Shown piece after piece: positions 8,937-16,002 of a DNA stretch of 20,406 nucleotides. The notes under the pieces are model-generated. The model saw nothing but the letters and a program-made list of their open reading frames with translations. It ran no database searches and had not been told where the DNA came from. Position numbers and translations under genes: made by a program. The stretch is taken from IMG/VR virus record IMGVR_UViG_3300046697_000011, positions 1-20,406 of that record; one strand, 5' to 3'. Each line of letters starts with the position of its first letter. Positions within the stretch are counted from its first letter, which is position 1. This DNA comes from a virus.

Positions 8937-9308
8937 ATGTCCAAAGTAGCCAAGAATCCTGCTATTGATCCAACCCTACCTAAAATAGTCATTACTCTGG
9001 GTGGAGTTGAGTACCATCTCTGCTTTACTTTTGGTGCTCTCGCAGTCGCCGCTGCAAAGCTCCGGCAAGCTGGTATCGCCTGCAATCTGTTGCACGCGCT
9101 CGACCTGAGCAACATGGACGCAGATCGTGTTGTGCCACTGCTCTATGCTGCACTCATCACATACAAGCCATCCATTACACCAGAAGAAGTTGCCAAGCTC
9201 GTGACATTCAGAAATCTAGGCAGCATATTTGAGGGTATTGCAAAGGCTTACAGTGAGTCACTTGCTGAGCCAGAGCCGAGTGACCCAAAACAAGAGCCAC
9301 AGGGTTAG
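8937..9308 (+). CDS. Tail assembly chaperone, short (unshifted) product, gpG-like
   Basis: The 123-residue zero-frame product is the G-like tail assembly chaperone. Such proteins bind the tape measure and bring in tube subunits, and are absent from the finished tail. It starts with a short basic and polar stretch, then VITLGGVEYHLCFTFGALAV; the strand-helix arrangement and helix VVPLLYAALITYKPS followed by TPEEVAKLV are typical of the family. The last 15 residues are Glu/Pro/Ser-rich and probably unstructured, as expected just before a slippery site. AAGGGG (8922-8927) lies 9 bases before the ATG. The TAG at 9306-9308 ends this form; a share of ribosomes should shift at 9284-9290 into the next frame. 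Confidence 0.9.
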   Translation: MSKVAKNPAIDPTLPKIVITLGGVEYHLCFTFGALAVAAAKLRQAGIACNLLHALDLSNMDADRVVPLLYAALITYKPSITPEEVAKLVTFRNLGSIFEGIAKAYSESLAEPEPSDPKQEPQG

Positions 9309-9661
9309 AGCTAAGCTCAGAAGCTCTGTGGCTGCACTTCTGGTCTGTCGCGAGATATGACCTCCATCTATCCAATAAAGACTTTTATGCACTAACACCA
9401 CGTCAATTCGATGCCTTGTTAAAGCGAAAACAAGTCGATACGGTCGCTAATGAGTTCATGCTTGCTCAACTAACAAGCTGGATTGCTAATACGGGCTTTA
9501 GATCATGTGAGAAGCCCACCAAGCCACAAGATTTTATGCCTAGTGAATGGCATAAGACTAATGACACTAAACCAAAGCGACCACACATGACAAAGAAACG
9601 CCTCGAAGCCGTCGCAAATGGTATCCGCATGATGTTTCCCAACCTCAATAAGAAGAAATAA
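8937..9661 (+). CDS. Tail assembly chaperone, -1 frameshift fusion (gpGT-like)
   Basis: The long form is read in frame to Lys118 (AAA at 9288-9290), then from base 9290 in the -1 frame to the TAA at 9659-9661, giving about 241 residues. The -1 frame is open from 9284 and has no good start of its own; the TTG at 9416 is an internal Leu codon. Its product reads LWLHFWSVARYDLHLSNKDF, then TPRQFDALL and later KPQDFMPSEW; the DFMP ending region is typical of the second part of siphovirus tail chaperones. In lambda the comparable gpGT binds the tape measure through its T part and the tube subunit through T or G. The stop overlaps the next ATG (TAATG). The position between tube and tape measure is exactly that of known two-frame chaperones. 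Confidence 0.87.
9284..9333 (+). promoter_or_regulatory. Programmed -1 frameshift signal (slippery heptamer plus stem-loop)
   Basis: The heptamer C-CCA-AAA (9284-9290) is of the X-XXY-YYZ type and in the correct phase: CCA 9285-9287 and AAA 9288-9290 are zero-frame codons. After a spacer of 4 bases, 9295-9306 pairs with 9322-9333 in 12 pairs, eight of them perfect at the base (AGCCACAG with CTGTGGCT) and two of the upper four being G-U. The 15-base loop contains a further small hairpin, GAGC-TAA-GCTC (9308-9318). The -1 frame has TGA at 9281-9283 and the zero frame TAG at 9306-9308, so a shift must occur in 22 bases, where this heptamer is the only good site. Confidence 0.88.
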
Positions 9662-10164
9662 TGCCAGATGGAATCAGTATCGAGGTTGAGGGACTAAAAG
9701 AGTTGCAACTTAAACTGAATGCTCTCACAACGAAACAAGCCGACCTCTGCATCCGTAAAGCTCTCAGAGCGGGCGGACTCATTGAAAAAGCTGCGGTAGA
9801 GGAACGCGCCCCTGTCAAAGATGAACCGGGTGGGTATCTCCCTGCTGGGGCACTCAAGGCTGACATCATTGTTCGCACCACGAAGGATGAGCAGGGGGCT
9901 ATCTCCGCAATCGTTGGCCCCAGCAAGCTCACCGCTCACGTCGCACGTTGGGTCGAATATGGACACCGAATGATACGCGGTGGGCGTTCTCGACTATTAC
10001 CAAATGGAAAGACTAGAGGACCGGGTAAGCAGATTGGATTTGTAGATGAACACCCATTCATCCGTCCTGCGTATGAAGCTACTCGCCAAGAAGTAATATC
10101 CACCATCTGCACCACACTCACCACTGAGTTAGAAAAGGCTGGAAATACCAAGGGAACTACCTAA
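9661..10164 (+). CDS. HK97 gp10-like tail component
   Basis: The 167-residue protein fits the HK97-gp10 putative tail-component family, members of which act at the head-tail junction or in tail completion. The opening ISIEVEGLKELQLKLNAL, then a helix with KALRAGGLIEKAAVEERAPV, and PAGALKADIIV are the typical first half. The later VARWVEYGHRMIRGG and HPFIRPAYEATRQEV are the family's best-known motifs. The start overlaps the chaperone stop by one base. In most HK97-like phages this gene lies between head closure and tail terminator; here it stands between chaperone and tape measure. The sequence shows no sign of decay. Confidence 0.9.
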   Translation: MPDGISIEVEGLKELQLKLNALTTKQADLCIRKALRAGGLIEKAAVEERAPVKDEPGGYLPAGALKADIIVRTTKDEQGAISAIVGPSKLTAHVARWVEYGHRMIRGGRSRLLPNGKTRGPGKQIGFVDEHPFIRPAYEATRQEVISTICTTLTTELEKAGNTKGTT

Positions 10165-12660: not shown

Positions 12661-13137
12661 ATGCCAGCAGCTTCCGGTTTCACTTACATCACGGCTAATA
12701 ACATCTACGGCAGCTTGCTTGGACAGTTGCTTGCGTCTGGTGAGATTCAGTTTCAAGCCGTCTCGACTTTGACCCAACAGCCGATTAGCTTCCGCGTAGG
12801 TGGGACAGACAACGGGCAGATGGTTTCCCTGCCATTCTGTTTCCCTGTCATCAACGGTGTTATCACCGCCGACTCATCCGGCATCACTCCTCAGTTGCCA
12901 GACGTGTCTTTAACAAATCCAGTAAACATAGGGTACTTAGTTAGCATTATTGACCCACTGACGGGTATAAACATACTCGGCTCTGGATACACTATCCAAC
13001 CTACTGGTGCAGCATTCGACTTTGATACTTACGAACCCAACCTTGACGATATGGTCACTATGCCACTAAAGCTACTGGCCGGAACGGGTATAACCATCAC
13101 ACAGAGCGGGAGCACTTACACTATTTCACTCAGTTAG
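12661..13137 (+). CDS. Short fibre-like protein, paralogue of the next gene's N-terminal domain
   Basis: The 158-residue protein is rich in Gly, Thr, Ile and Asn and appears all-beta. Residues 1-131 align with residues 1-129 of the following fibre gene; by hand about two thirds of positions are identical, including [27 protein letters not shown] and the FD-DT-P-L pattern near the end. After this domain it has no collagen-like part but a short ending, GTGITITQSGSTYTISL, a motif often seen near the ends of phage fibre and tip proteins. It is probably a virion-bound fibre or adaptor that may share an attachment site with its neighbour or form mixed trimers. AGGTGAG occurs shortly before the ATG. 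The role is inferred. Confidence 0.75.
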   Translation: MPAASGFTYITANNIYGSLLGQLLASGEIQFQAVSTLTQQPISFRVGGTDNGQMVSLPFCFPVINGVITADSSGITPQLPDVSLTNPVNIGYLVSIIDPLTGINILGSGYTIQPTGAAFDFDTYEPNLDDMVTMPLKLLAGTGITITQSGSTYTISLS

Positions 13138-13536
13138 GACTAAATCATGCCAGCAGCACCGGGCTTCACCCTCATCACCGCATCTAGAATCTATGGCTCT
13201 CTGCTAGGCCAGTTACTTTCAACTGGCCAGATAGAGTTTCAAGCCGTGTCTACTACGACAGGTGTGCCGATCAGTTTTGAGGTAGGCGGCGGCGGACAGA
13301 TGAGCATTAAGCCTTACTCATTCCCCATTGTCAACGGTGTACTCACAGCGGACTCCTCCGACATTCCTCCACAAATACCCGATACCACAATGACAAGTCC
13401 AGTTAACATCGGATATACGGTAAGTATTATTGACCTTGCGGGTAACAACATACTCGGCAATGGCTATGTGATCCAACCGTCTGGTGCATCATTCGATTTA
13501 GATACCTTTGTTCCATCACTGGGTCTGATGGCTACA
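12661..13536 (+). repeat. Protein-level tandem duplication of the fibre N-terminal domain
   Basis: The domain coded at 12661-13053 and the one at 13147-13536 are homologous over about 130 residues with roughly two thirds identity and two small gaps (hand alignment). At the DNA level they have diverged clearly, so the duplication is old or came by recombination between related phages. Confidence 0.8.
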
Positions 13537-16002
13537 ATTCAGACTGGCCCAACTGGCCCAACAGGTGCTACTGGCCCAACAGGTGCTACTGGGCCAACCG
13601 GCCCACAGGGGGCGCAGGGGATTCAGGGCTTGACGGGAGCAACAGGCCCACAAGGTATTCAGGGCGATACCGGCGCGACTGGGCCTCAAGGCCCGATTGG
13701 ATTGACAGGAGCTACCGGGTTGCAAGGCGTACCTGGGCCAACCGGACTGACGGGAGCAACCGGATCTGTGGGGGCTACAGGTCCGGCGGGAGCGCAGGGG
13801 ATACAAGGATTGACCGGCCCGACAGGACTGACAGGTGCTACGGGTGCGCAAGGCATTCAGGGTATAGCGGGAGTGGCCGGGGCAACGGGGCCACAAGGGG
13901 CTATCGGAGCCACGGGCGCGACTGGCCCTACCATCTATCCATCCGGCACCGGGATTGTGACTGTGAATGCAGGAGCGTGGAGTACAACGCTAAGCACCTA
14001 TGGCACTGGCTCAGTGCTGCTAGGAACACAAGGAGTTGGGTCTGCGGCCTACATGAACGCGACGAATGCTCCCACACCATCAACCGTTGTAATGCGCGAC
14101 GCCTCCGGCAATTTTATGGCGGAGACAATCTCGGCTAGTTTGGCAGGTACGGCAACAGAAGCCACTAATTTGACTGGTGGCATAACTTATAGCATCCCTT
14201 ATCAGTCAGGTCCGTCTCTAACTTATTATTCCAGCGTTCCAATCACAAATGGTCACACGTTTGTACTAGGATACCAGCCGACCGGAAGCGCAGTTGCTCC
14301 GAATCCAATAGATGCCAACACGCTATCTGTCAATTATGCTGCGACGGCTGGCATGACGACAAACATCACAGCGACGAGCAATTCAACGCTCACCACTTTG
14401 AGCAGCCTATCTCTGCCCTACTCCCAACTAAGCGGTACACCGACAGTGGGCACATGGAGCGCACTGAGTTATCCAACGTGGACTACAGGTACGCCATTTG
14501 TCAAGATGACGGCAGCAGGGACGTTCGCGCTGGATACGAATACCTACTTGACCTCCTCCGGCGTGAGCGGGATGACATCTGGGCAGCTAGGTGTTGCAGG
14601 TTCGGCTACTACGATCACGGCCTCTATCGCCTATGCTACGGCGAACACAGCCTCAACTATCGTAGCTAGGGACTCATCCGGCAATTTCTCAGCGGGTACA
14701 ATCACAGCAACTGGTATTACTCTTTCCAATCTTACATCCGGTTATTATCTTTTAGCCGGTACAAGTGGGGCAATTGGAAATGGACATATCTTTGATACAG
14801 GATCGGTTGTAGACATACTGGAGCCAGCTACTTTCTTCTACGCAGTTAATGCAGCCAGTTCGTTGAGTGTGACAGGAGCGAACGCTACATCGTCGATCAA
14901 CTACAGTTCTAGCGTGTTGGATATAGTAGGAAGTTATTACTCAGGTGCAACGCTTTCCGATGTTTGGCAGGTACAGAATGTCATTGGTACCGGATCGTCG
15001 CCGATTAGCACACTGACCTTCACACATACGGGGAGTTCCGGTGCGGCGGCGATAACAATGCCTTCTCTAACCATTGGTGCGGGGTCAGCTATTACTAGCA
15101 GCGGTGGTGGTGGAGCATTGGCATCGGGGGCTTTCACGGCAGCTTATAGTCTGCCCTCTACTGTTGTACAGACAGGACAGGCAAACACTTACACTACCGG
15201 CTTGCAGAACTTCTCCTCGGCAACAATGAAAATACCAGCAAGTGTGACGGTGGGCAGCAATACCATCACAATGCCATCGGCAACAGGTACATTGGCGATG
15301 CTTGCAGCTCCCCAATTTAGTGGTAATGTTGAGATTATTGGTGGCAGTGTTGGGGTCGGCTCTGGTGCCGGCGTACAGAACGGGTTCCTAGTAGGTGGTA
15401 CTTTTCAAAACACACTGGGGTCAAATAAGTCTGCTTTCAATGCTACTTTTACAGTGAATTCTTCCGACACAAATGGCAATATATTTGTGTTCAATTCCTC
15501 ACCAACAACAGCGACGAGTGCGATAACTAACTACTTTGTAGGTTTCTGGTCCTCATTCACTCTCGGATCATCAAGCACGGTTAATCATTACGTGGGTTTT
15601 TACGACGCAAAGGCATCGGCACACTCAGCCACAAATAACGCCGCTTTCTCCGATAATCTTTCCTTCACCGGATATTACTTTATTAATCAATCCGGTACCG
15701 ACCCCAGTGTCTTTCACGGCCCCCTCAACTCTGCTGCTACTCAATCTACAGTAAGCGCATCGACCAGCGGTACAGTTGCTTTCTCTCAACCATTTCAGGG
15801 GAGCAGCTATATGAAAGTTGTCATCTTCTGTAACGCGGCTGTGGGAACGGCCAGCTATATCTTCCCAACAGCCTTCAATAGCATACCGGGAATCATTGCT
15901 AGTTCATTAGTTGCAGCTACGGTGGTTACATCCCTTTCCGCATCGTCGGTCACCATAACAGGGGCAACTACAACCGGGTTTATTTTCCTTGAAGGATACT
16001 AA
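13147..16002 (+). CDS. Tail fibre with collagen-like stalk
   Basis: The 951-residue fibre has four recognisable parts. Residues 1-130 repeat the domain of the preceding gene and probably anchor it to the tail. Residues 134-262 are 43 uninterrupted Gly-X-Y triplets (mostly GPT, GAT, GLT, GPQ, GIQ), a collagen-like trimeric stalk. Residues 263-865 form a Ser/Thr/Gly-rich beta region with two copies of an R-D-[AS]-S-G-N-F motif (D318 and D509), each followed by a Thr/Ala-rich strand. The last 84 or so residues, from [20 protein letters not shown] to FIFLEGY, look like a conserved terminal module found on many environmental phage fibres (recollection). There is no Asp/Ser-type intramolecular chaperone signature. 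Its likely role is to bind the cell surface. Confidence 0.88.
13546..13932 (+). repeat. Collagen-like Gly-X-Y repeat region (43 triplets)
   Basis: The 387 bases code for 43 consecutive Gly-X-Y units without interruption. The DNA is repetitive at a 9-base and 18-base scale; a perfect 18-base unit (ACTGGCCCAACAGGTGCT) occurs twice in a row at 13552-13587. Such tracts change length easily by slippage or recombination. Confidence 0.95.

Follow-up and report, generated by a model that had tools for sequence, protein, structure and literature searches.

A probable hairpin-stimulated −1 frameshift signal with the zero-frame stop inside the hairpin in the tail chaperone gene of an apparent phage of soil Acidobacteriota

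Frameshifting in tail chaperone genes is among the commonest recoding events and is well known in phages. The −1 frameshift of the lambda tail chaperone (G/GT) and its homologues in long-tailed phages were reportedly described by Levin in 1993 and by Xu in 2004. G-T frameshifting is widely conserved (reviewed in PMC5009743), and structures downstream of phage frameshift sites are often found (PMC3483164). As to the slippery sequences themselves, C_CC.A_AA.R belongs to the efficient heptamers of E. coli, C_CC.Y tetramers shift there only with a stimulator, the usual spacer is 5–8 nt, and a published search rule asks for a hairpin 4–10 nt downstream with an unfolding energy of at least 7.6 kcal/mol and a G-C closing pair (PMC4066793). 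The locus analysed here is close to the Z_ZZN and X_XXZ_ZZN signals of the IS3 family, which include C_CCA_AAR heptamers, stimulator-dependent C_CCY and a hairpin 4–10 nt downstream (PMC4066793), but the product is a transposase in that family and a tail chaperone here.

The window, i.e., the whole stretch of 20,406 nucleotides under analysis, corresponds to IMGVR_UViG_3300046697_000011, a 20.4-kb virus contig in which terminase, portal, protease-like (a label given by eye from the ORF position) and capsid genes are followed by tail genes. After the capsid gene come the major tail protein gene, the chaperone pair, an HK97-gp10-like gene and the tape measure gene, and profiles identify the neighbours of the chaperone in the window (phrog_158 for the major tail protein and Tape_meas_lam_C). 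As in lambda G/GT, the first ORF of the pair is a tail assembly chaperone gene lying between the tail tube and tape measure genes, a −1 shift is predicted close to where this ORF ends, the other frame lacks a start of its own, and both a short and a long chaperone product are predicted. Unlike in lambda, an HK97-gp10-like gene separates the chaperone from the tape measure gene; this gene (9661–10164; tail completion/Neck1) does not lie upstream of the tail tube gene. Elsewhere in the window, the adjoining ORFs 12661–13137 and 13147–16002 have similar N-terminal domains, the latter, a probable tail fibre, then having a stretch of collagen-like type (GPTGATGPT), while the left-edge ORF (23–706) has, by eye only, the look of a DNA methyltransferase (HPTVKP and GSGS motifs). 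Scans for relatives returned IMG/VR contigs, Edaphobacter and Granulicella genomes, and further genomes of the same class, which makes Acidobacteriota the likely hosts; L064 comes from an Edaphobacter MAG, L065 and L066 are prophages, and L066 belongs to Granulicella sp. dw_53. The virus appears to be a phage of soil Acidobacteriota. The elements of the locus are the following:

8937–9308, + strand: zero-frame tail assembly chaperone (gpG-like), 123 aa, from ATG to the TAG at 9306–9308
9284–9661, + strand: −1 frame ORF (gpT-like extension), opening after the TGA at 9281–9283
9284–9290, + strand: putative slippery heptamer C_CCA_AAA in zero-frame phase (from the sequence and relatives)
9291–9294, + strand: 4-nt spacer (from the sequence and folding)
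9295–9306, + strand: 5' arm of the 12-pair outer stem (RNA folding)
9306–9308, + strand: TAG stop codon ending the zero frame, on top of the outer stem, with U9306 paired, A9307 bulged and G9308 opening the inner stem
9308–9318, + strand: inner 4-pair stem-loop GAGC-UAA-GCUC, pairs 9308–9311/9315–9318 (folding)
9322–9333, + strand: 3' arm of the 12-pair outer stem (RNA folding)

Among profiles, phrog_2115 (tail protein, E 4.3e-10) and phrog_183 (tail chaperone, E 0.002) match the zero-frame protein, as does PF11836 weakly, below the cut-off. The AlphaFold model of this protein (pLDDT 80) has a tail assembly chaperone among its best BFVD matches (E 1.8e-4, probability 1.00), and a PDB fold search with the same model returned nothing useful. 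The −1 frame matches PF06223 Phage_tail_T just under the cut-off of 25.9 bits (E ~1e-4, 23.1–23.5 bits), a profile also hit by 10 of 12 relatives (E ≤ 0.01), as well as PF09550 TAC_6. The models of the two halves both match one viral protein of 247 aa, A0A0K1LMC7, with a probability of 1.00, which is expected of a G-T fusion, even though its E-values are weak (6e-3 and 2e-2 for the two halves). A tblastn search of annotated phages with both window proteins yielded no match. In the window, the −1 frame contains no ATG, GTG or TTG before 9416, where the first one, a TTG, already falls inside the conserved domain. The downstream frame is probably chaperone-like, given its tail-T/TAC profile matches, and is devoid of a start before the conserved domain, as the original prediction had it. 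Since the −1 frame opens right after the TGA at 9281–9283 and the zero frame ends at the TAG, the two frames can only be joined within 9284–9305, i.e., 22 bases.

Judging from sequence, the locus is very probably a programmed −1 ribosomal frameshift signal, stimulated by a hairpin, in a tail chaperone gene of the lambda G/GT type. According to this reading, most ribosomes would reach the TAG at 9306 and yield the short chaperone, while a minority would be held by the hairpin, acting as the stimulator, with the P site on CCA and the A site on AAA. Both tRNAs would then re-pair with CCC and AAA, and reading would go on in the −1 frame to 9661, producing a G-T fusion joined at ...SDPK-TRATG... 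and leading into the putative T-like domain; the junction peptide proposed earlier, DPK-TRATG, is a correct reading of the letters. That slippage takes place, how efficient it is, what the two products do and whether termination influences their ratio are matters of inference.

In the window, the CCCAAAA at 9284–9290 provides an in-phase slippery motif within the overlap. The motif is unlikely to be there by chance: across 8-codon windows of this phage's genes, any in-phase X_XXY_YYZ heptamer occurs in 1.0% and a strong V_VVA_AAR heptamer in 0.13%. The spacer of 4 nt is short compared with usual lengths, which counts against a frameshift reading. Folding of 9284–9340 pairs 9295–9306 with 9322–9333, including two G-U pairs, and adds the inner stem, for a total of −24.2 kcal/mol (z −3.43; one of 200 dinucleotide shuffles folds as well). 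The original prediction was accurate in all these respects: the in-phase heptamer, the 22-base joining interval and the 4-nt spacer have the coordinates that it gave, folding reproduces its 12-pair stem exactly, and the TAG does sit at the top of the stem, with U9306 closing the outer stem. Set against the published search rule, the hairpin begins 4 nt after the motif and, once closed, has −23.0 kcal/mol, within the 4–10 nt and beyond the minimum of 7.6 kcal/mol, but its closing pair is A-U (A9295-U9333) rather than G-C; G-C pairing starts with the next pair, at a spacer of 5. A Shine-Dalgarno-like stimulator upstream, which is an optional element, is absent from the window. When the codons are resampled synonymously, 204 of 5000 sequences are as stable as the window hairpin (p 0.04). 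The latter is thus only moderately unusual on its own, and it is the relatives that argue more strongly for the stem.

For this comparison, 41 junctions were read after merging identical ones, all selected for a zero-frame ORF that leads the second frame by one base; the lack of such an ORF excluded only two candidates. Eight of the 41 were excluded for a doubtful frame or near-identity (L078, L079r, L080, L086 and L087r for a doubtful frame or stop, in addition to near-duplicates), leaving 33 for the statistics. The −1 geometry is common to all selected junctions, being the selection criterion itself, and when upstream ORFs were listed without selection, every match of the zero-frame profile stood in this +1 relation, L078 being doubtful. 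Nucleotide divergence from the relatives L004 and L005 is uneven along the gene.

The second frame might instead be translated alone, through either internal initiation or reinitiation after termination at the TAG, in which case the hairpin would serve coupling. The ORFs do overlap, the stop does lie beside the conserved domain of the second frame, and a few relatives (L023, L042, L075r, L077r and L063) have an ATG or GTG 20–26 nt past the stop. However, the second frame lacks any ATG, GTG or TTG before the conserved domain in 28 of the 33 loci, just as in the window, so that a start of its own is rejected for most loci, and the enrichment of phase-specific shifty motifs described below would be needless for reinitiation. 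Independent translation is therefore very unlikely, and programmed −1 frameshifting remains the preferred reading.

The original prediction had proposed looking for conservation of the heptamer in related phages, and this expectation failed: CCCAAAA does not extend beyond the nearest contigs, and the prediction of this specific heptamer is wrong for most relatives. Other relatives carry CCCAAAG (L017), GGGAAAA (L022, L023), CCCTTTG (L033, L042; motif class CCCTTTR) or AAACCCC/T (L036, L062, L075r; class AAACCCY), while L019 combines GGGAAAC with AAACCCT, and many have only a C_CCC or C_CCT tetramer, typically as GAC_CCC (L007, L008, L021, L034, L064, L066 and others). Relatives lacking the heptamer, named beforehand as evidence against the signal, thus literally exist, but frameshifting is not refuted by them, since they have some other shifty motif at almost the same position. 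A recognised motif ends 9–24 nt before the stop in 27 of the 33 loci, against 11% of equal gene-body windows. With synonymous resampling, for which the motif set did not include the A_AAR and U_UUY tetramers, 26 of 33 loci have a shifty motif where 9.8 are expected (p 3e-10). Four of the 33 junctions have theirs only outside the scored window, and none was found in two (L071 and L077r).

Upstream of the motif, one of the words GAGG, AGGA and GGAG is present in 19 of 26 loci against 8.5% of gene-body windows, but 14.1 are expected from the encoded amino acids (p 0.013). In L007, L008, L021, L033, L034, L064 and L066, a GAGG/AGGA word stands 12–13 nt before C_CCY and resembles the Shine-Dalgarno stimulator of dnaX. 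We do not claim such an upstream stimulator, since the words are mostly, perhaps not wholly, explained by the amino acids and are absent in the window.

The hairpin is more constant than the motif. All 26 loci that have both a motif and a local hairpin, the set on which the count is defined, show a hairpin of at most 45 nt starting 3–10 nt past the motif with −7.6 kcal/mol or better, compared to 30% of controls, and the medians are −15.4 vs −5.0 kcal/mol at control positions. (A hairpin search with a 90-nt limit returned long folds and was uninformative.) The stop falls within the best hairpin in 26 of 26 scored loci, which is partly forced by geometry. Moreover, folding is stronger in windows with the stop at their centre than elsewhere in the same genes, and p is below 0.05 for 14 of 39 of them (Fisher p 2e-16). 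In relatives, the arms read, for instance, AGCCACAGAGC/GCTCTGTGGCT in L016, AGCCGGAGCT/AGCTCCGGCT in L022 and GCCCGGG/CCCGGGC in L063, while GCCGG/CCGGC (L034) and GGCGG/CCGCC (L021) are arranged around the TAG. L017 and L018 are the exception, their strongest hairpin lying after the stop and not around it; in L017 (2486–2560) and L018, CCCAAAG and CACCCC are both in phase, and a perfect 8-pair hairpin is found just past the stop.

The strongest evidence for the hairpin is an alignment-free arm-swap test, in which the 21 nt running through the stop are paired either with the locus's own downstream 27 nt or with those of other loci. (A pair count based on MAFFT was not used, because the MAFFT alignment broke up the stem arms with gaps.) Over the 33 loci, an arm pairs better with its own partner than with a swapped one (z −4.7), and the same is seen over 19 distinct lineages (z −4.0; 6 of 100000 permutations); as our p values treat related loci as independent, this last test is the most conservative. 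Locus-specific pairing of this kind implies compensating changes, of which the arms listed above are examples, and the compensatory stem changes that the original prediction proposed to look for were therefore found. Its central claim, a −1 frameshift signal joining a two-frame chaperone, is likewise borne out by the −1 geometry of all junctions, the 28 startless loci out of 33, the motif enrichment and the covarying stem. Frames, phase, stem, missing second-frame start, conservation and covariation are established here.

These data also bear on whether the frameshift could be real but the hairpin incidental, reflecting GC-rich overlapping coding or another role, such as that of a terminator. 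The moderate result of synonymous resampling in the window would fit such a view, as would lambda (GGGAAAG), HK97, P2 and Che8, in none of which we found a stop-spanning hairpin. Against it stand the enrichment of folding around the stop and the arm-swap result in relatives. At the site itself, an intrinsic terminator was rejected (no T-run, no terminator hit) and so was a known RNA family (no Rfam match). Besides, tetramer sites such as those seen in relatives do not shift in E. coli unless a stimulator is present (PMC4066793). An incidental hairpin is thus improbable, and we retain the hairpin as a predicted stimulator of frameshifting.

Compared with the sites of lambda, HK97, P2 and Che8, the stem of the window is strong, conserved and spans the zero-frame stop. 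Nevertheless, D29 gp24/25 has a strong stop-spanning hairpin after a GGGGGAA run, and so do nine D29 relatives (10 of the 11 phages examined); in Saintus, the most distant D29 relative examined, the TAG is annotated in a shifted place and there is no fit (p 0.13). The arm-swap test on this D29-type set (L090 and L094–L102, cluster A-type actinophages) gives a z of −3.5. The two groups share a slippery run followed by a predicted hairpin spanning the zero-frame stop, but the slippery motif differs and no sequence similarity to the window was detected. The layout is then neither general to tail chaperones, as lambda, HK97, P2 and Che8 lack the hairpin, nor unique to the clade studied here, as the D29 type has it. 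In the literature searched, which did not include Xu et al. 2004, we found no description of stop-spanning hairpins in phage tail chaperones.

The position of the TAG suggests that a ribosome terminating there would melt the stem, as proposed originally, and relatives have kept a hairpin that spans the stop. Once the A site reaches 9306, the 5' arm would lie within the ribosome, so that the stem would be open and could re-form after release; with the stop inside the hairpin, a terminating ribosome would open the hairpin but not pass it, making refolding for the next ribosome possible. It is plausible that termination at the enclosed stop tunes the ratio of the two products. A bolder version extends the preferred explanation: the hairpin would act as the stimulator, and the enclosed stop would, through termination, measurably set the G:GT ratio as well, as in coronaviruses. 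In its favour, the stop is inside the hairpin in the window and in every scored locus, a placement that a hairpin start 3–10 nt past the motif already makes likely, and the D29-type actinophages have a similar layout. The coronavirus ORF1a/1b site also has its zero-frame stop inside the stimulatory structure, and in SARS-CoV-2, the closest experimental precedent, moving or removing this stop cut frameshifting to 80% and 50%, respectively, part of the loss upon removal being rescued by weaker initiation (PMC8168617). This is a comparison of how the sites work only, as the coronavirus signal has a pseudoknot, eukaryotic ribosomes and another motif, and is not homologous. Conversely, the sites of lambda, HK97, P2 and Che8 without such a hairpin indicate that this layout is not needed for G/GT in general, and a short overlap would force the stop near the slip site anyway. 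On balance, we regard a measurable effect on the ratio as a serious possibility, with somewhat less than even chances.

More tentatively still, and we rather doubt than expect it, a stop placed in a stimulatory hairpin, opened by each terminating ribosome and refolding afterwards, may be a recurrent design of tail chaperones that arose separately in phages of Acidobacteriota and in D29-type actinophages. If so, the G:GT ratio would be insensitive to ribosome traffic, and selection could maintain the hairpin as the slippery motif changes, down to a C_CCY tetramer. Frameshifting itself is here of a known kind, while the stop-spanning hairpin is well supported and apparently under-described. Here, conservation is higher in the structure than in the slippery sequence, which offers a testable rule for annotating sites without a formal heptamer. 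The system of the window would thereby provide a bacterial test case for the proposed control of the frameshift ratio by termination inside the stimulator.
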